Of a DNA stretch of 64,000 nt, positions 15,497 through 23,749 are shown piece after piece. How positions within the stretch are numbered: position 1 is the stretch's first letter; the number at the start of each line of letters is the position of its first letter. Both the position numbers and the translations under genes were made by a program. Below the pieces are notes generated by a model. The model saw only the letters and a program-made list of their open reading frames with translations, did not search any database and was not told the DNA's origin. Location of the stretch: the NCBI GenBank assembly GCA_000517565.1, contig CP007051.1, positions 310,001-374,000 on the forward strand. Direction: 5' to 3'. The stretch is from Desulfurella acetivorans A63. GTDB lineage: Bacteria; Campylobacterota_A; Desulfurellia; Desulfurellales; Desulfurellaceae.

Positions 15497-17059
15497 CTAC
15501 ATTTCCGATATAATAATTTTTTGCATTTTTTGTGTTTTAGTTTTAATAAAAGGCAAAAAAATTAAAAATACAAGTATAATATACGTCATTAAATGAAAAT
15601 CATCCTGGAAAGCCATTATAGTGCTTTGTGCATTGATTGTATTGTTTATTAAGCCTATTGCTTTGTTATAGCAAATTGTAGGATTAAAACCACCATAAGT
15701 AAATAGATAACTAGAAAGTATATGAAGATAATTTTGAAAAATAGGATTTGAAGCAGTTATGTTGCTAACAAGGACACCTCTATGGAAAGCTTCACGATGA
15801 GCTAGCATAGTAGAAGCCATAAGTGATATACCAAAACTTCCACCAATACTTCTTGCAAAGTTTAACACGCCACTTGCTTCTCCCATATCTTCATTTTTTA
15901 AAAAAATAAACGCTATTACATTGATAGGAATGAATATAAGTGGCAAACCTAAACCAATAAGTACTCGTCCAAGAAGCAAAAAATAGGGTGAAGCGGTTAA
16001 GTTAATTTGTTCCATTAAGTATAATGCATAAAGTCCAATTATCACGCAAAATATTATAAGGATTTTAAAACCTAATTTTTTTGATACTCTACCAATAAAT
16101 ATAACTGTAATAAGACTGGCAATACCGCCTGGCATCATAATAAGACCACTTTTATAAGCATCGTAGTTCATTAATGTTTGCATAAGCTCTGGTAAAAGAG
16201 TTAACGTAACAAAAAACAAAAATCCCAAAAAAAACATAGCAATTGTTGCTATAGCGTAGTTTCTATCTTTAAGTAAACTCATTCTGATAATTGGTTTGTC
16301 TGAAAAATAATTTTTTATCAAAAACATTGATATAAAAAAGAAACTCAAAAGAGCCAAAATTACAATAAAATTTGAATTAAACCAATCATCTTCTTGTCCT
16401 CTATCTAACATTACCTGGAGCGCGCCAATGCCTATTGCAATAAAGCTTAAAGCCACATAATCTAATTTTAAGGTTTTATTTGCTTTTGCATATGGTGGAT
16501 CAAATATAAACAGTAGTGTCATTATTGTTGCTAATATACCAAATGGTACGTTAATCAAAAACATCCATCTCCATGAGTAACTATCTACAATCCATCCACC
16601 TATTACAGGTCCCAAAATAGGTGCAAATATAACGCCAATCGAAAAAATACTCATGGCTTGGGCTCTTTTTTCTAAAGGAAAACTCTCCATTAGTATTGCT
16701 TGGGATATGGGTTGCAAACCACCGCCTGCAAAACCCTGTATAGCTCTAAATAGCAATAATAAATCAAGAGTTGGAGCAATACCACACAAAAAAGAACTCA
16801 CAGTAAAACCAATTATGCTTATAAGAAAGTAATTTTTTCTGCCAAATTTATTTCCCAAAAAACCTGTTATGGGCAAAATTATACCACTTGCAGCTAAGTA
16901 AACAGTAAGTGTCCATGTAGCATCATCTGTTGTTACAGATAATGGACCTGCCATGTAAGAAAGTGCCACAGTAACAATAGAAGTATCCATAAGCACCATA
17001 AAAGTAGGTAGCATAACAGTTAAAGCAATAATATATGGATTAACTTTTCTATCTTGCAT
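15497..17059 (-). CDS. DHA2-family multidrug exporter (EmrB/QacA type)
   Basis: A 520-residue inner-membrane MFS protein with about 14 transmembrane segments, the DHA2 layout. Motif A is GNKFGRKNYF after TM2. The motif C-like antiporter region is APILGPVIGGWIVDSYSWRW, and the family segment MDTSIVTVALSYM is in TM1. It exports drugs or metabolites by proton antiport. No EmrA-type adaptor lies next to it. It follows the cupin gene after about 100 bases that contain a promoter. Substrate unknown. Confidence 0.88.
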   Translation of the reverse strand: MQDRKVNPYIIALTVMLPTFMVLMDTSIVTVALSYMAGPLSVTTDDATWTLTVYLAASGIILPITGFLGNKFGRKNYFLISIIGFTVSSFLCGIAPTLDLLLLFRAIQGFAGGGLQPISQAILMESFPLEKRAQAMSIFSIGVIFAPILGPVIGGWIVDSYSWRWMFLINVPFGILATIMTLLFIFDPPYAKANKTLKLDYVALSFIAIGIGALQVMLDRGQEDDWFNSNFIVILALLSFFFISMFLIKNYFSDKPIIRMSLLKDRNYAIATIAMFFLGFLFFVTLTLLPELMQTLMNYDAYKSGLIMMPGGIASLITVIFIGRVSKKLGFKILIIFCVIIGLYALYLMEQINLTASPYFLLLGRVLIGLGLPLIFIPINVIAFIFLKNEDMGEASGVLNFARSIGGSFGISLMASTMLAHREAFHRGVLVSNITASNPIFQNYLHILSSYLFTYGGFNPTICYNKAIGLINNTINAQSTIMAFQDDFHLMTYIILVFLIFLPFIKTKTQKMQKIIISEM

Positions 17060-17500: not shown

Positions 17501-17813
17501 ACACACTCCAAATTTTAGAAGTATTTAATTTTAAGTAACTAACTTTTTTTACAATATTTATTAATTTTTGTCAAAAAAAACTTTTAAAGCTCTTAAATAG
17601 TTATTTTTCTTACATATTTTATAGAATCTTTTTTAAATCTAAGTCTAAAAATTATTTAAGCTTTGAATTCATCCATTAGATTAAATTGATTAGAAACTTT
17701 CTATAACAAAATTATTTTGTTCAAATAAAATATAAATAATTATTTTTTTTGTTTTTTTGTTTTTTTTGTGATATACTATTTATGAAGGATTTTTGGATTT
17801 TTAGGTGTAAAAA
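17501..17813. other. AT-rich divergent intergenic region before the polysaccharide operon
   Basis: About 310 bases with no credible gene, between the leftward cupin and the rightward polysaccharide operon. It contains T-rich runs near 17740-17768 and a possible -10 TATACT at 17772-17777, about 36 bases before the operon start, without a good -35. On the minus strand a TTGACA (17569-17574) with a weak -10 faces the cupin. The lack of a -35 for the operon would fit activator-dependent expression (inference). Confidence 0.5.
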
Positions 17814-19169
17814 TTGGTTTTACAAAAAAAATTAATAATTTTTAGCAATAGATTTTTTGAAAAACGTGAACCATATGAAGTGTTTAATTCTTGGGAAAGT
17901 TTCTTAGATTCGGCAATTGAACCTATAGGGTTTTGGATTGCAAAAGATTTTAATGATAACTATTTAAGTATTATAAATAATATTAGACGTTCAAATTGGT
18001 GGTATAAATATTGTTTTAGTGAAGACAATTTAAATAATGAGCTTCTAGATGGTAGTTTAGATATAGATAAAGCCATAGATAAGTGTAATTTATCTGAGAA
18101 AAAAATTACCAAACTAAAGTTTAGCTTAGAAGGTCTTGCTGCCAGTGAAAAATTACTAGTTTATTTGTATTTACGTGAAGGTTTAGAAATTGTTCCTCAA
18201 TTTAACCCAAATGCGCCAAAACTTTATACTTACCCTATTATTGAGATTTTAAGCGATAATCAAAACGATTTAGATTGGTACCAAGAATTGATTAGAAAAA
18301 ATCTTCTTGCTTATAAAAAACTTATTGATAGGGTTAGACTTTGTAATAATTGTTCCAGTGCTCACATATATTTTGTTGATGTTTGCCCAAATTGCAAAAA
18401 TATAGACATAAAACGCTCACGCTTTCTTCATTGTTTTGCATGTGGATATGTTGGCAGGCAGGAAGAATTTAGCAAAGGTTATGATTTAATATGCCCAAAA
18501 TGTAATGCCCATCTAAAACATATTGGGGTAGATTATGATTTGCCTACTGCACAATATATTTGCAACAATTGTGGTTATGTGTTTGAAGAACCTGAAACAA
18601 TATACCGCTGTATTGCGTGTGGAGAAGAAGGTAGTCCGGATAAGTTAAATATACAAGAATTTTACAGTATTGAAATGACTTTGTATGGCAGAGAATGGCT
18701 TTTACTTGAGCAAAAGAAAATGATATTTTCAGTGTTAAACGAAAGCTTAAAATATGTTTCTTTAGAATATTTTCAACTCTTATTAGATTGGTTTATAAAA
18801 CTTTACAAAAGAGATAGTAATTTTTCATTTGCTTTGGCGCTAATTAAGTTTCAGAATATCGAAGAAATAATTCAATTCTATGGAATCAGTCAATCTATAG
18901 AAATTTATAGAGCATTAGCGCAACGCATAAGCGAGATGCTACGCAATACAGATATTGTGTGCAGAGATGACGAATACAAATTATGGATTTTTTTACCTGC
19001 TACGAAAAAAAAGGGTATTTGTAATAGAATTAATAAACTGGTAAATAGCATACAACCAGAAAGTGGTGTAAAAATTAAAGTTTACATTAATATACAATAC
19101 TCTTCTGAAATAGACTCAGAAATTAATGCTGAATTTTTAATGAATAAATTGGATTCAAAAAATGATTGA
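17814..19169 (+). CDS. Zinc-ribbon protein with degenerate GGDEF domain, putative c-di-GMP receptor of the polysaccharide operon
   Basis: A 451-residue soluble protein not recognised as a named family. Three parts are visible. Residues about 1-170 are helical with no motif known to me. Residues 177-269 carry six CxxC knuckles (C177/180, C191/194, C207/210, C227/230, C250/253, C266/269), enough for about three zinc ribbons. Residues about 330-451 look like a GGDEF domain whose catalytic loop is RDDEY (384-388) instead of GGDEF, so cyclase activity is unlikely. An RxxD I-site-like motif (R377-D380) is kept just before it. This resembles PelD logic, in which an inactive GGDEF binds c-di-GMP to switch on synthesis. 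Bacterial proteins annotated TackOD1 may be related (from memory, unchecked). Start is TTG with AGGTG upstream. It overlaps the synthase gene by eight bases. Confidence 0.55.
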   Translation: MVLQKKLIIFSNRFFEKREPYEVFNSWESFLDSAIEPIGFWIAKDFNDNYLSIINNIRRSNWWYKYCFSEDNLNNELLDGSLDIDKAIDKCNLSEKKITKLKFSLEGLAASEKLLVYLYLREGLEIVPQFNPNAPKLYTYPIIEILSDNQNDLDWYQELIRKNLLAYKKLIDRVRLCNNCSSAHIYFVDVCPNCKNIDIKRSRFLHCFACGYVGRQEEFSKGYDLICPKCNAHLKHIGVDYDLPTAQYICNNCGYVFEEPETIYRCIACGEEGSPDKLNIQEFYSIEMTLYGREWLLLEQKKMIFSVLNESLKYVSLEYFQLLLDWFIKLYKRDSNFSFALALIKFQNIEEIIQFYGISQSIEIYRALAQRISEMLRNTDIVCRDDEYKLWIFLPATKKKGICNRINKLVNSIQPESGVKIKVYINIQYSSEIDSEINAEFLMNKLDSKND

Positions 19170-20481
19170 TTCAATTTATTTAGCTTTTATTAACATAATA
19201 ACATCTCACAATTCATTTTTGACATTTATACTTATGTTTACGCCTTTTATAGTATTTTTTGAGGGCCCTTTGCAACTAATAACAATGATAGGCATATTTA
19301 GATTTGCCAAACAACAACTAGCACAAAGCGATTTATTAACTCAATTACCACATGTTAGTTGTTGTATTACTTGTTATTCTGAAGGAAAAAGCGTTATAAA
19401 TACAATCAAATCTTTAACCTTTCAAACATATCCTGGTTTAATTGAAATCATAGCTGTTGTCGATGGTGCGCTACAAAATAAAGATACTTTGCTAGCCGTA
19501 CAAAGTTGTAAAGAATTTGTCGAAAACACTACTAATAGAAAATTACTTATAATACCTAAATGGCAGCGAGGTGGTAGGGTTTCTTCTTTAAATGCAGCAC
19601 TAAAAATAGCTTGTGGGGAGATCTTTATGGCTTTAGATGGAGATACTTCTTTTGATAATAACATGGTAGTAAATGCTGTTAAACAATTTAACAATGACAA
19701 TATAATTGCAGTTGCTGGCAATTTGCGCGTAAGAAATGCTAGCAAATCATTAGCTACAAGACTTCAAGCCTTAGAATATATTTTGAGTATATCTGCTGGC
19801 AAAACAGGTTTGTCTGCTTTTGGTATTGTAAATAATATATCTGGGGCTTTTGGGGTTTTTAGAAAGAAAATTTTGGACTTAATAGGTGGGTGGGATACTG
19901 GTACAGCAGAAGATCTTGATATTACAACAAGAATCAAGCAATACTTTGGAAGAAATAAAAACTGGAAAATTGTTTTTGACCCTTATGTAATAGGGCATAC
20001 AGATGTGCCAGAAACATTTTTGGGTTATTTTAAACAAAGGCTTCGTTGGGAAGGAGATTTATTTTATCTTATAGGTCGTAAATATTTGGATAATATAAGA
20101 CCAAGATTGTTAAATTGGGCTAATTATATATCAACAATAATTATAACCTATTTTATGCAAATTATTTTACCATTTGTTATAACTTTTTATACCATCTATT
20201 TGTTTTACACCCTACCAAGCGCATATGTTTTAGCTTTATATTTTATGGTTTACTTATTTTATGTATTTGTTTTGTTTACATATTTTTTATTATACTGGCT
20301 TTTGGTATCTGATAGATTAAACGAAGACATTATTTACTTTTTGTATATACCTTTATTTCCTTTTTTTGCATTTTTTTCCAGAATCAATGCTGCATTGGCA
20401 ATCACGCACTCTGTAATAAACAAATCGCATTTGGATTCGAGTATGGCGCCTTGGTGGGTTTTAAAAAAGGGTAAATTTTGA
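19162..20481 (+). CDS. Processive family 2 glycosyltransferase (exopolysaccharide synthase)
   Basis: A 439-residue inner-membrane synthase of the cellulose/PNAG/hyaluronan type. Catalytic signatures are complete: D101 (VVDGA), D159 and D161 (ALDGDTS), the base D251 (GTAEDLDITTR), and QRLRW (Q292-W296), which binds the growing chain. One or two membrane helices lie at about 18-45. Three or more lie after residue 315, forming the translocation channel. No PilZ domain is fused, so c-di-GMP control would have to come from a partner. It overlaps the regulator upstream and is one base from the channel gene downstream. Polymer identity cannot be read from sequence. Confidence 0.88.
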   Translation: MIDSIYLAFINIITSHNSFLTFILMFTPFIVFFEGPLQLITMIGIFRFAKQQLAQSDLLTQLPHVSCCITCYSEGKSVINTIKSLTFQTYPGLIEIIAVVDGALQNKDTLLAVQSCKEFVENTTNRKLLIIPKWQRGGRVSSLNAALKIACGEIFMALDGDTSFDNNMVVNAVKQFNNDNIIAVAGNLRVRNASKSLATRLQALEYILSISAGKTGLSAFGIVNNISGAFGVFRKKILDLIGGWDTGTAEDLDITTRIKQYFGRNKNWKIVFDPYVIGHTDVPETFLGYFKQRLRWEGDLFYLIGRKYLDNIRPRLLNWANYISTIIITYFMQIILPFVITFYTIYLFYTLPSAYVLALYFMVYLFYVFVLFTYFLLYWLLVSDRLNEDIIYFLYIPLFPFFAFFSRINAALAITHSVINKSHLDSSMAPWWVLKKGKF

Positions 20482-20482
20482 T

Positions 20483-22669
20483 ATGAGTCTAAACTATAAA
20501 ATGAAAGTGTCAATTTTTACTTGTTTAGTTTTATTTTTAATTCCGTATGCTTGCAAAGCACAAACAATCACTTTGGAACAATTGCAACAATTAATACAAA
20601 AAGATCCCAATATTGAAATAGCGCAAAAAGAATATAATATTGCAAAATCACAGGTTGATATAAATGAATCTGCTCTTTCTCCAACGCTATTTGGCAGTGT
20701 AACCTATACAAACTATTCAAATCCTGTCCAAACTTCTACTTACAATGTTTCTACTACAAACCAAAACGGCTTAACAAATAATTATAGCGAAACACTAACT
20801 CCGCAACAACAAAGATACAATAATGTTTCTGCAAATATTGGTTTGAGTATACCTTTGTTTGGCAGCCATCAAAACCTAAAGCGAGACTTAATTGTAAGTA
20901 AATCTATATTAAACCAAAACTCTGCAAACATAGAACTACAGAAATGGCAAGCAATTAAATCCTTAATTTATGCTTATTCAGAGTATTACATAAGATCAAT
21001 CCAAATAGCTTTAGCTAAAGGTTTTTTACATGACGAAAGCTTAGTAAAAGATATTTTATTAAAAAGACAAAAAGCTGGGCTAATACTGGAGTCAGATAGG
21101 CTAGAATTAAATACAGAATTTGGCGCAGTAAAACGCAATGAGTTTGTTTATTGGAAACAATCTCAAGATGCATTAAATACGCTACAATTGCTAACCGGAA
21201 AAACATTAAACAATATAGAGTTGGCCTATCCTTATTTGAATACAGATTTTATAACAAAACAAGTTCTAATTGAATCTATGTATAAAAATCCTCAAATTAA
21301 GCTATACACAGAAAAATTAGAAGGTTATAAAAAAGCATTGAGTGAAACCGGCTCAATATTTTCATCTGGTAGCTTAAGTGTTTCGACGGGTGTTCAAAAT
21401 AGTTTTCAGGGAGGAATTGGGTGGAATGTGTCTGCTACTTTAAACATAGGTATGCCTCTGCTCGAAAAAAAATGGTATGATGCTACATATTCCAAGGCAT
21501 TTTTGGAAATGCAAAAAGCCGAATTAGAGTTAGAAAACCAAAAGAAAGCCTTTAAAAACGCATGTAGCAGTTATTATTTGCAGTTTTACTCAAGAAAAGA
21601 AAATTTAGAGTTCGCCAAAGAAAGACTCAATGCTGCTCTTGTAAGTTATAATACTGCAAAACTAAGAAAGCCAATAAATCCTGGGGATTACTTTTATAAT
21701 GTAGTCAAGTCTAAATACTATTTATATCAAACTGCAAATGATTATCTTGAAGCTTTACTTGAGTATTTTAAAGCGCAGGCAGACTTACTTGGGTTAATTG
21801 GCTATGATGATATTATGTACAAAAAAGACGCTATTAATGACAAAAATGAAAATGAAATTTCGAATATAAAAGGTATTTTTAATACACCTAAAATAAATTA
21901 TCGAAATGGTTCATATTTGAGTTGGTATTTATGGAATGGTTTATATTGGTATAAAAAATTAGGCGAAAATTTCTGGGATAAAATTCCTAAGTCAACAAAA
22001 AGAATTTTTTTGTCTTTAAATAGCCAAGAAATACAGCTTGTAAGGTCTAATCAAAAAGATGCAGATGTATTAACAAAATTTATAAGACAAGCAAAACAAA
22101 GAGATATAAAAGTAGAATTGCTATTAGGTGATCCTTATTGGGCATTAAGCAAATATAGAACTAATCTAATAAATATAATTAAAAATCTTCAAAGATTTCC
22201 TTTTGATGGTATACAGCTTGATATAGAAAAAAGTCAGCTTCCTCTTAAAGATAGGCATCTTTGGGAAAATGGTATAGTTAAAACAATATCGGAAGTTAAA
22301 AAAAATACTTCTTTGCCTATAGGATTATCTATGAATTATAAGGAAGCTGAAAACAAGATTTTATTAAATGAACTTAAAAAAGCTGGTTTAAACGAAGTTA
22401 TTCTTATGGTATACACTACAAATACTAAAAGAATTATAGAAATTTCAGATAATATTATAAAGCAAAACCCTAACTTGTATTTTAGCATTGCATTATCTTG
22501 CGAGCCAACATCTGTTTTGCCACAATACAATACCTTTGCGCGGTTTGGTGCAAATAACTCACTATTAAAATGGGAAGATTTGTATAAGCATTTTTCTACA
22601 ATAGATAATTTTTTAGGTATCACTATACAATCACTTGAAGATTTTTGGAGTTTAAAAAATGAAAATTAA
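20483..22669 (+). CDS. TolC-type outer membrane channel fused to a glycoside-hydrolase-like domain
   Basis: A 728-residue two-domain protein. A signal peptide (hydrophobic core, cleavage probably after CKA near residue 32) leads into a TolC/OEP domain at about 35-440. That domain has two duplicated helical halves (ITLEQLQQLIQKDPNIEIAQ, and later LYTEKLEGYKKAL with LEMQKAELELENQKKAF) around porin strands. Residues 467-728 form a TIM-barrel-like domain. It has an opening ISLN/FLSLN strand, FDGIQLDIE (574-582, candidate acids D580 and E582), LPIGLSMNY and EVILMVYT strands, as in GH18-like and PgaB-type hydrolase barrels. TolC C-termini face the periplasm, so the hydrolase would trim polymer at the channel entrance. 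I do not know this fusion as a described architecture. Overlaps the adaptor gene by 11 bases. Confidence 0.75.
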   Translation: MSLNYKMKVSIFTCLVLFLIPYACKAQTITLEQLQQLIQKDPNIEIAQKEYNIAKSQVDINESALSPTLFGSVTYTNYSNPVQTSTYNVSTTNQNGLTNNYSETLTPQQQRYNNVSANIGLSIPLFGSHQNLKRDLIVSKSILNQNSANIELQKWQAIKSLIYAYSEYYIRSIQIALAKGFLHDESLVKDILLKRQKAGLILESDRLELNTEFGAVKRNEFVYWKQSQDALNTLQLLTGKTLNNIELAYPYLNTDFITKQVLIESMYKNPQIKLYTEKLEGYKKALSETGSIFSSGSLSVSTGVQNSFQGGIGWNVSATLNIGMPLLEKKWYDATYSKAFLEMQKAELELENQKKAFKNACSSYYLQFYSRKENLEFAKERLNAALVSYNTAKLRKPINPGDYFYNVVKSKYYLYQTANDYLEALLEYFKAQADLLGLIGYDDIMYKKDAINDKNENEISNIKGIFNTPKINYRNGSYLSWYLWNGLYWYKKLGENFWDKIPKSTKRIFLSLNSQEIQLVRSNQKDADVLTKFIRQAKQRDIKVELLLGDPYWALSKYRTNLINIIKNLQRFPFDGIQLDIEKSQLPLKDRHLWENGIVKTISEVKKNTSLPIGLSMNYKEAENKILLNELKKAGLNEVILMVYTTNTKRIIEISDNIIKQNPNLYFSIALSCEPTSVLPQYNTFARFGANNSLLKWEDLYKHFSTIDNFLGITIQSLEDFWSLKNEN

Positions 22670-23654
22670 ATTTAGCAGACCCCCTTCATCTCCAAATGAA
22701 GTTAGCGGTTTAAAAGTTAATTATGAACCTCCAAAAAGACCAATTTCAAAATGGCGTTTTAGGGCTGTGCTTATATTATTTTTACTGCCATTTTTAGTTT
22801 TTGGTGTATATTTGATTTATAAAATTACTTACAATCTATTGTTTATTAATGCACCCGGATACTTAATTTTTAACCAAATAACAATCAAAGCTCCTTATGA
22901 TGGAAAAGTAGTATACATAAGAAAACCTGGTGATAATGTCAAAAAAAATGAGATTATACTCAAAATAAAAAATCCATTAGTAGAAAATCAGTATAGAGAA
23001 TTATTTAAGAGTTTAAAACAAATAAAATCATCAGCTAGCATAAAGGTTAACCCTGAAGTGTTAAAAATTTACAAAGAAGTTTACGAAAGTCGTTTAAAAA
23101 CATACAAAGAAATACTCAACCTACAACAAAAAAACGCAGCAACATCATATGAAGTGGCAAATGCACAAGATGCTCTGCACTCTGCAGAGATTGCTTATTT
23201 GCAAGCAAAGCAAAGTTTAGAAAGCAACAAAAATGTACCTGTTGCCGAGGATATGAAATTAAATGAATTGGAATCTATATTGCAAAGTTTAACTATAAAA
23301 GCGCCAGAAAACGCAACAATTGCTTTAGATCTTGTTAAAGAAGGAGAATTGGTTAATAAAAATGAAGATCTAATGGTGTTGCAAAACAATAACAATGTTA
23401 TAATAGAAGCGTTTTTAGAGCCGAATAAGGTGAAACATGCTTTTTTGGGTAAAAAAACTAAAGTTGTGTTTCCAAATGGTAAATCGATAAAAGCTGAAAT
23501 TATTGGCCTAAAATTACAAACCCAAAAAACTCCTCCAATTTTAGTATCTCCATTTGCAAAGGAAAATCTATCTGTGGTAGTTGAACTAAGGCCAATTAAT
23601 GCAATCCCAAAAAACTTAATGATTAATTATATGCCAATAAAGGTTGTTTTTTAA
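22659..23654 (+). CDS. HlyD-type periplasmic adaptor of the polysaccharide operon
   Basis: A 331-residue membrane-fusion protein. A proline-rich cytoplasmic tail of about 30 residues precedes one membrane helix (about 36-60). A lipoyl-like half motif follows (ITIKAPYDGKVVYIRKPGDNVKKNE). A long helical hairpin spans about 108-205 and the second lipoyl half is LTIKAPENATIALDLVKEGELV. The C-terminal beta-barrel reads VIIEAFLEPNKVKHAFLGKKTKVVF. The order and topology match HlyD/EmrA adaptors and the periplasmic part of Alg44, but no PilZ domain is present. It would bridge the GT2 synthase in the inner membrane to the TolC-type channel. The stop is followed seven bases later by convergent tRNA-Leu. 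Confidence 0.85.
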   Translation: MKIKFSRPPSSPNEVSGLKVNYEPPKRPISKWRFRAVLILFLLPFLVFGVYLIYKITYNLLFINAPGYLIFNQITIKAPYDGKVVYIRKPGDNVKKNEIILKIKNPLVENQYRELFKSLKQIKSSASIKVNPEVLKIYKEVYESRLKTYKEILNLQQKNAATSYEVANAQDALHSAEIAYLQAKQSLESNKNVPVAEDMKLNELESILQSLTIKAPENATIALDLVKEGELVNKNEDLMVLQNNNNVIIEAFLEPNKVKHAFLGKKTKVVFPNGKSIKAEIIGLKLQTQKTPPILVSPFAKENLSVVVELRPINAIPKNLMINYMPIKVVF

Positions 23655-23661
23655 AAAACAA

Positions 23662-23749
23662 TGGTGCCGAGGGTGGGAATCGAACCCACACGGGAGAAAC
23701 TCCCAAGGGATTTTAAGTCCCTTGCGTCTACCAATTCCGCCACCCCGGC
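23662..23749 (-). tRNA. trnL: tRNA-Leu (UAA anticodon)
   Basis: An 88-base class II cloverleaf including an encoded CCA. The acceptor GCCGGGG pairs with CCTCGGC, the anticodon loop is CTTAAAA with anticodon TAA, and a long variable arm and GGTTCGATTCC T-arm are present. It is the last of three co-directional tRNAs (Gly-Cys-Leu). Confidence 0.95.

Follow-up and report, generated by a model that had tools for sequence, protein, structure and literature searches.

Positions 17814-23654 of a 64-kb stretch of the Desulfurella acetivorans A63 genome (contig CP007051.1; the whole stretch is hereafter called the window) carry a four-gene operon whose best explanation, and in our judgement a likely one, is a polysaccharide synthase gated by cyclic di-GMP (c-di-GMP) that secretes its product through a HlyD-TolC conduit. 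The operon is probably one copy of a widespread, apparently undescribed machine for making and exporting a surface sugar polymer, and switching of this machine by c-di-GMP probably operates in those species that possess the signal.

The four open reading frames (ORFs), all on the forward strand, stand in the ORF list of the window exactly where a preliminary description of this DNA had placed them, and Pfam matches agreed with the domain families proposed there. In order, they encode a 451-residue protein in which a TackOD1 zinc-ribbon domain (PF18551, E-value 3.9e-57) precedes a degenerate GGDEF domain (PF00990, 1.2e-7; 17814..19169); a processive-type polysaccharide synthase of glycosyltransferase family 2 (GT2), 439 residues long, with transmembrane helices at both ends and matches to GT2 families down to 7.4e-15 (19162..20481); a TolC-family outer membrane channel of 728 residues with a signal peptide and a C-terminal barrel (OEP, 1.7e-15; 20483..22669); and a HlyD-type periplasmic adaptor of 331 residues (HlyD_3, 3.3e-7; transmembrane helix at residues 36-54; 22659..23654). 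The zinc-ribbon and the inactive GGDEF domain noted earlier are thus both present, the former being the already named domain TackOD1. The genes had also been described as overlapping, which holds for two of the three junctions (8 and 11 bases); the GT2 and TolC genes are separated by 1 base. Scans for promoters and terminators gave no more sites than shuffled sequences did.

Conservation of the cluster across phyla

A search for the neighbourhood in other genomes, as the preliminary description had proposed, showed that the cluster recurs in at least nine phyla, and the notion of a system peculiar to this genome was not borne out. A profile scan of 84,980 genomes for the TackOD1-GGDEF protein yielded 48 loci. 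The protein family is present in 47 of them, where its gene stands next to a GT2 gene in 46 cases and a HlyD gene in 43; 28 have a neighbouring TolC gene that includes barrel sequence, and one cut contig has the barrel alone, some of the absences being due to contig ends. Three arrangements predominate. The order TolC-barrel, HlyD, TackOD1-GGDEF, GT2 occurs in Alteromonadaceae, Chromatiales, Desulfobacterales, Balneolota, Bacteroidota, Synergistota and Aquificota; the order TackOD1-GGDEF, GT2, TolC-barrel, HlyD is that of the window, genome G155, loci L057 and L148 and an Aeromonas plasmid; and a three-gene form (TackOD1-GGDEF, GT2, HlyD) is found in Vibrionaceae, Psychromonas and Plesiomonas. 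In a broad survey of 386 genomes, picked by kinship and family and not by presence of the system, 11 of 13 clear TackOD1-GGDEF genes adjoin a GT2 gene. Pairwise protein distances, compared over 25 complete loci, are correlated among all four members (r 0.71-0.92); shared ancestry of the hosts accounts for part of this, and no value as high arose in 2000 permutations. The four-gene cluster is not a chance assembly.

The GT2 synthase

The window GT2 has the features of the inner-membrane processive glycosyltransferases of synthase-dependent systems, namely transmembrane helices and the D, DxD, D, QxxRW series, with DxD at residues 159-161, AEDLD at 250-254 and QRLRW at 292-296. All aligned copies share these motifs, and no aligned GT2 has lost D, DxD, D(x)D or QRxRW, save for one that a contig end cuts short. 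The motifs support the earlier assignment as a processive-type synthase; a non-processive enzyme would have spoken against it. In the tree, the GT2s of the system group together as a single clade (support 98/84), itself divided into two well supported halves and separate from E. coli PgaC, BcsA and NfrB and from ten other GT2s, although BcsA and NfrB have long branches and their exact position is unsure. The nearest relatives of the window protein are PgaC/IcaA (5.8e-46; 157 bits, far under the NCBIfam equivalog cut-off of 422 bits), and the best NCBIfam models are those for poly-GlcNAc and chitooligosaccharide synthases. No common sugar-nucleotide pathway was seen among the genes flanking the 47 loci, so the sugar cannot be read from the neighbourhood. 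The similarity to PgaC/NodC and the GH18-like barrel described below point to an N-acetylhexosamine polymer, which we offer as a guess that may well be wrong.

GT2 folds are in wide use and some loci lie next to adhesin secretion genes, and one might imagine that the enzyme makes a lipid- or protein-linked glycan, with HlyD-TolC exporting a glycosylated protein or lipid and no free chain. The QxxRW motif and transmembrane layout, which are those of processive synthases, the poly-GlcNAc and chitooligosaccharide models, and the lack of any flippase, ligase or substrate protein constant in the cluster make this the least probable of the alternatives that we considered.

A proposed HlyD-TolC conduit without a pump

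The adaptor, with one N-terminal transmembrane helix and a cytosolic tail, and the TolC-family channel are two parts of a tripartite efflux or type I secretion system. As for the third part, no energised ABC, RND or MFS transporter is constant across the 47 loci: one heterogeneous ABC family occurs beside 10 of them and nothing else beside more than 6. Nor did any gene for a tetratricopeptide repeat (TPR) porin recur beside these clusters, a TolC-family channel being found in its place; the exit of the Bcs, Pga, Alg and Pel systems, a TPR scaffold with a beta-barrel porin, is not that of this system. In two Caldisericaceae genomes without a TolC-family gene the cluster HlyD is just 221-227 residues long, leaving no room for the TolC-docking hairpin, as expected if the hairpin serves exit through TolC. 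Vibrionaceae have several TolC-family genes elsewhere in the genome, and these could serve their three-gene clusters.

The adaptor and channel might instead be parts of a pump for efflux or type I secretion, the nearness of the GT2 gene being incidental. HlyD does match EmrA models weakly (1.3e-6), and an EmrB-type MFS gene (15497-17059) lies 2 kb from the operon. As a partner for HlyD this gene was rejected, since a relative of the same genus (G001) retains it without the operon, and another relative (G002) has the operon elsewhere. The cluster also has no constant transporter, and 43 of the 47 loci have HlyD together with TackOD1-GGDEF and GT2. We therefore consider a pump improbable, and a role in drug efflux only, raised earlier as a possible objection, did not emerge from the comparison.

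The neighbours of the three-gene form in three species of Photobacterium (L060 263-8665, L061, L099) encode LapD, a LapG-type protease, an ABC transporter, HlyD and TolC, the components of an adhesin system under c-di-GMP control. This setting fits a biofilm role.

A candidate c-di-GMP receptor

TackOD1 has been described, in the passages of PMC5847659 that concern it, as an output domain of archaeal response regulators whose function is obscure; it is cysteine-rich with CxxC motifs and occurs with signalling proteins, also in some bacteria. Those passages make no link to a polysaccharide synthase. In the present system 10 of its cysteines and one histidine are invariant among 39 sequences. 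The TackOD1-GGDEF protein has no transmembrane segment and no GAF domain, and its model (pLDDT 89.3) gave diguanylate cyclases as the Foldseek matches of the GGDEF part. The GG(D/E)EF signature is absent in 48 of 48 sequences. The residues of the inhibitory site for c-di-GMP (I-site) are largely kept: in the window the RxxD motif is RNTD (residues 377-380; 18942..18953, forward strand) and the third residue is R405 (19026-19028), and the corresponding positions are retained in 39 (R377), 47 (D380) and 33 (R405) of 48 sequences. In PelD, an RxxD motif and a later Arg bind c-di-GMP, and in streptococcal PelD the GGDEF domain was lost where c-di-GMP is absent (PMC7112168). We propose from these residues that the TackOD1-GGDEF protein is a cytosolic c-di-GMP receptor. 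NCBI labels plasmid copies 'diguanylate cyclase', including the TackOD1-GGDEF gene of pKAM329_3, a label that the sequence, with its lost active site, contradicts.

The distribution of the I-site follows that of the signal. In ten Bacteroidota/Balneolota genomes bearing the system, EAL genes are lacking and, one borderline case apart, so are GGDEF matches; the I-site triad is complete in 0 of these 10 (R377 and D380 together in three) and in 9 of 9 genomes with GGDEF genes (eight tested and that of the window), a difference (Fisher 1e-5) that is uncorrected for shared ancestry, all ten belonging to one supergroup. The same ten genomes, in which the system persists, and the better conservation of the TackOD1 cysteines compared with the GGDEF part would also suit the same synthase system with TackOD1-GGDEF acting as a scaffold or zinc-dependent assembly factor, a fossil GGDEF that senses no c-di-GMP. 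Such a factor would hardly be expected to retain the I-site R and D across very divergent sequences though the active site is gone, nor to miss the triad exactly where c-di-GMP genes are missing, and we rate a scaffold unlikely, if the most serious competitor of a c-di-GMP-gated synthase.

Elsewhere in the same genome, outside the window (G000:C1:1518878-1519593), the EAL part of a GGDEF-EAL gene is interrupted by three in-frame TAA stops.

The fused barrel

After the TolC part come 270 extra residues, for which Pfam was blank in the scan of the whole protein. An AlphaFold model of this region, built from 28 relatives, is a complete, eight-stranded (beta/alpha)8 barrel (pLDDT 91.7), located at 21854..22666 on the forward strand; the fusion of channel and hydrolase-like barrel that had been described is present here and in most relatives. 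D, E, M, Y, Y and W are invariant in the 28 sequences. An HLD(I/V/L)EP motif, whose D and E are among the invariant residues, stands at the end of strand 4, and the invariant M and a Y at the end of strand 6. An acidic DxE closing strand 4 and an M-x-Y closing strand 6 of a TIM barrel are what we take to be the GH18 arrangement, and all three elements are present. GH18 is also the Pfam family with the largest number of matching members (only 5 of 28, at E-values up to 1, best 1.8e-6), the window barrel scoring 15.8 bits, under the Pfam cut-off of 29.6 bits. The fold search returned general TIM barrels (TM-score about 0.5-0.57), among them GH18, GH20, GH84 and GH10, with MTHFR leading; these matches are unspecific, and the enzyme cannot be named from its fold alone. 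Within the PDB a single entry, 10yv_A, matches the sequence strongly (1.6e-7), and its own label is no firmer than 'putative GH97'. A PgaB-type hydrolase was rejected as an identification, E. coli PgaB not matching the barrel profile.

Candidates for the catalytic residues of the window barrel are D580 and E582 (22220-22228). The C-terminus of TolC lies in the periplasm, and the barrel should therefore surround the periplasmic part of the channel. The barrel family is confined to this cluster: nine genomes have one copy each, G001 and the tested Vibrionaceae none. In Hippea-like relatives (L042/L077, L041/L072) a separate secreted barrel gene follows the GT2 gene, and the TolC protein has a C-terminal extension, which seems to be what is left of a barrel and lacks the catalytic motif.

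Mobility of the block

The G002 operon matches that of the window at 95% identity along 5.8 kb; the similarity stops just past the last gene, and the surroundings differ. G001 has both flanks in synteny, on the left up to a cupin gene and on the right from a tRNA-Leu gene at 23662, and no operon: the intervening slot (window 17507..23661; L167 2400-9062 in G001) there holds patatin-like and 2-methylcitrate-type genes instead. In the genus of the window the block is an exchangeable cassette that moves as one unit. In the GT2 tree the sister of the window protein comes from G155, which lies outside the class of the window genome, and a mobilizable 29-kb plasmid of Aeromonas caviae, pKAM329_3, carries the same four genes in the order of the window, barrel included (L157 6596-12418). 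The slot itself is an exchange hotspot next to three tRNA genes.

Proposed mechanism

In the mechanism that we infer, the inner-membrane GT2 would polymerise a sugar, perhaps an N-acetylhexosamine, and thread the growing chain across the inner membrane; HlyD, anchored beside it, would connect it to the TolC trimer, and the chain would leave by this adaptor-TolC conduit and not by a porin of the BcsC/PgaA/AlgE type. The TolC-fused barrel, in the periplasm around the channel, may trim or clear misplaced chain, like PgaB, PelA and BcsZ elsewhere. Binding of c-di-GMP at the I-site of the cytosolic TackOD1-GGDEF protein would turn the synthase on, as PelD does in Pel.

Several observations weigh against this mechanism. 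The Vibrionaceae clusters lack TolC and barrel, so that these two parts are not obligatory. Two of the 13 TackOD1-GGDEF genes of the broad survey have no neighbouring GT2 gene. The I-site contrast rests on the one supergroup, Bacteroidota/Balneolota, and maybe on few events. In the window barrel the H and P on either side of the motif have been lost, and identity to the other barrels is only 14-27%. Finally, we found no published experiment on any member of the cluster. TackOD1-GGDEF genes also stand without adjoining GT2, HlyD or TolC genes at L149 7790-8980 (G177) and L151 7900-9180 (G171), and the protein may thus serve other outputs too.

Relation to known systems

No description of the four-gene neighbourhood was found in open-access papers, and within this literature the cluster did not prove to be a well-described family with known function. 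The pairing of a synthase with an adaptor and TolC, presented earlier as unusual, is kept across phyla and yet has precedents. According to the account in a review (PMC12430437), a tripartite route of GT2 synthase, HlyD-like and TolC-like proteins, XcsA-XcsB-TolC, was proposed for Thermosynechococcus cellulose (Maeda et al. 2018). As far as that account goes, the Xcs endoglucanase XcsC is separate and not fused to the channel, c-di-GMP control lies in a PilZ domain of the synthase, the genes are scattered in T. vulcanus, no TackOD1-GGDEF protein takes part, and the route itself is unproven. In rhizobia, BgsB-BgsA, GT2 and HlyD-like proteins encoded in one operon, make a mixed-linkage beta-glucan, a demonstrated product, under c-di-GMP activation (PMC9495663), whereas there c-di-GMP binds the synthase's own C-terminus and the operon is without TolC, barrel or TackOD1-GGDEF (PMC9495663). 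The system is therefore not categorically new, since a TolC exit for a GT2 product has been published for cyanobacterial cellulose and BgsA/BgsB pairs GT2 with HlyD. Likewise, c-di-GMP control is not confined to PilZ or PelD, as had been supposed, the BgsA C-terminus and BcsE being further inputs.

With PelD the window protein shares a degenerate GGDEF domain with an intact RxxD I-site and a later Arg (PMC7112168), whereas PelD is membrane-bound with a GAF domain and the window protein has TackOD1 in place of both. Pel likewise includes a hydrolase domain. Its glycosyltransferase, PelF, is cytosolic and of another family, and its export proteins differ. The E. coli poly-N-acetylglucosamine system PgaABCD is alike in its GT2, the nearest being PgaC/IcaA, and in a periplasmic barrel hydrolase; it differs in its exit, the TPR-porin PgaA, in PgaC lying outside the GT2 clade of the system, and in PgaB, which has no match to the barrel profile.

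A broader proposal, in which our belief only slightly exceeds our doubt, is that these loci are phylum-spanning, horizontally moving exopolysaccharide machines in which a synthase replaces the energised pump at the base of a HlyD-TolC conduit, a trimming enzyme is built into the channel and TackOD1-GGDEF is a new type of c-di-GMP receptor. If true, an unrecognised surface polysaccharide system would exist in many bacteria, including marine Vibrionaceae, Alteromonas, heat-loving Desulfurellales, Aquificota and Bacteroidota, masked by annotations such as 'diguanylate cyclase', 'TolC family protein' and 'efflux adaptor'. HlyD-TolC conduits would be able to carry a growing sugar chain, the unproven cyanobacterial proposal would become testable in a single operon, and the TackOD1 domain would gain its first proposed job.

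Variant loci

In G155 (L146 4459-9413) the TackOD1-GGDEF and TolC genes are each split into two frames, as in a decaying copy or through sequencing error. On an Alisedimentitalea plasmid (L159 5602-10286), TackOD1 and the degenerate GGDEF domain are separate genes before GT2 and HlyD; galE follows, a possible hint at the sugar. An Aquificota-type copy (L145 9077-9808) has an additional OmpA-domain gene between HlyD and TackOD1-GGDEF.

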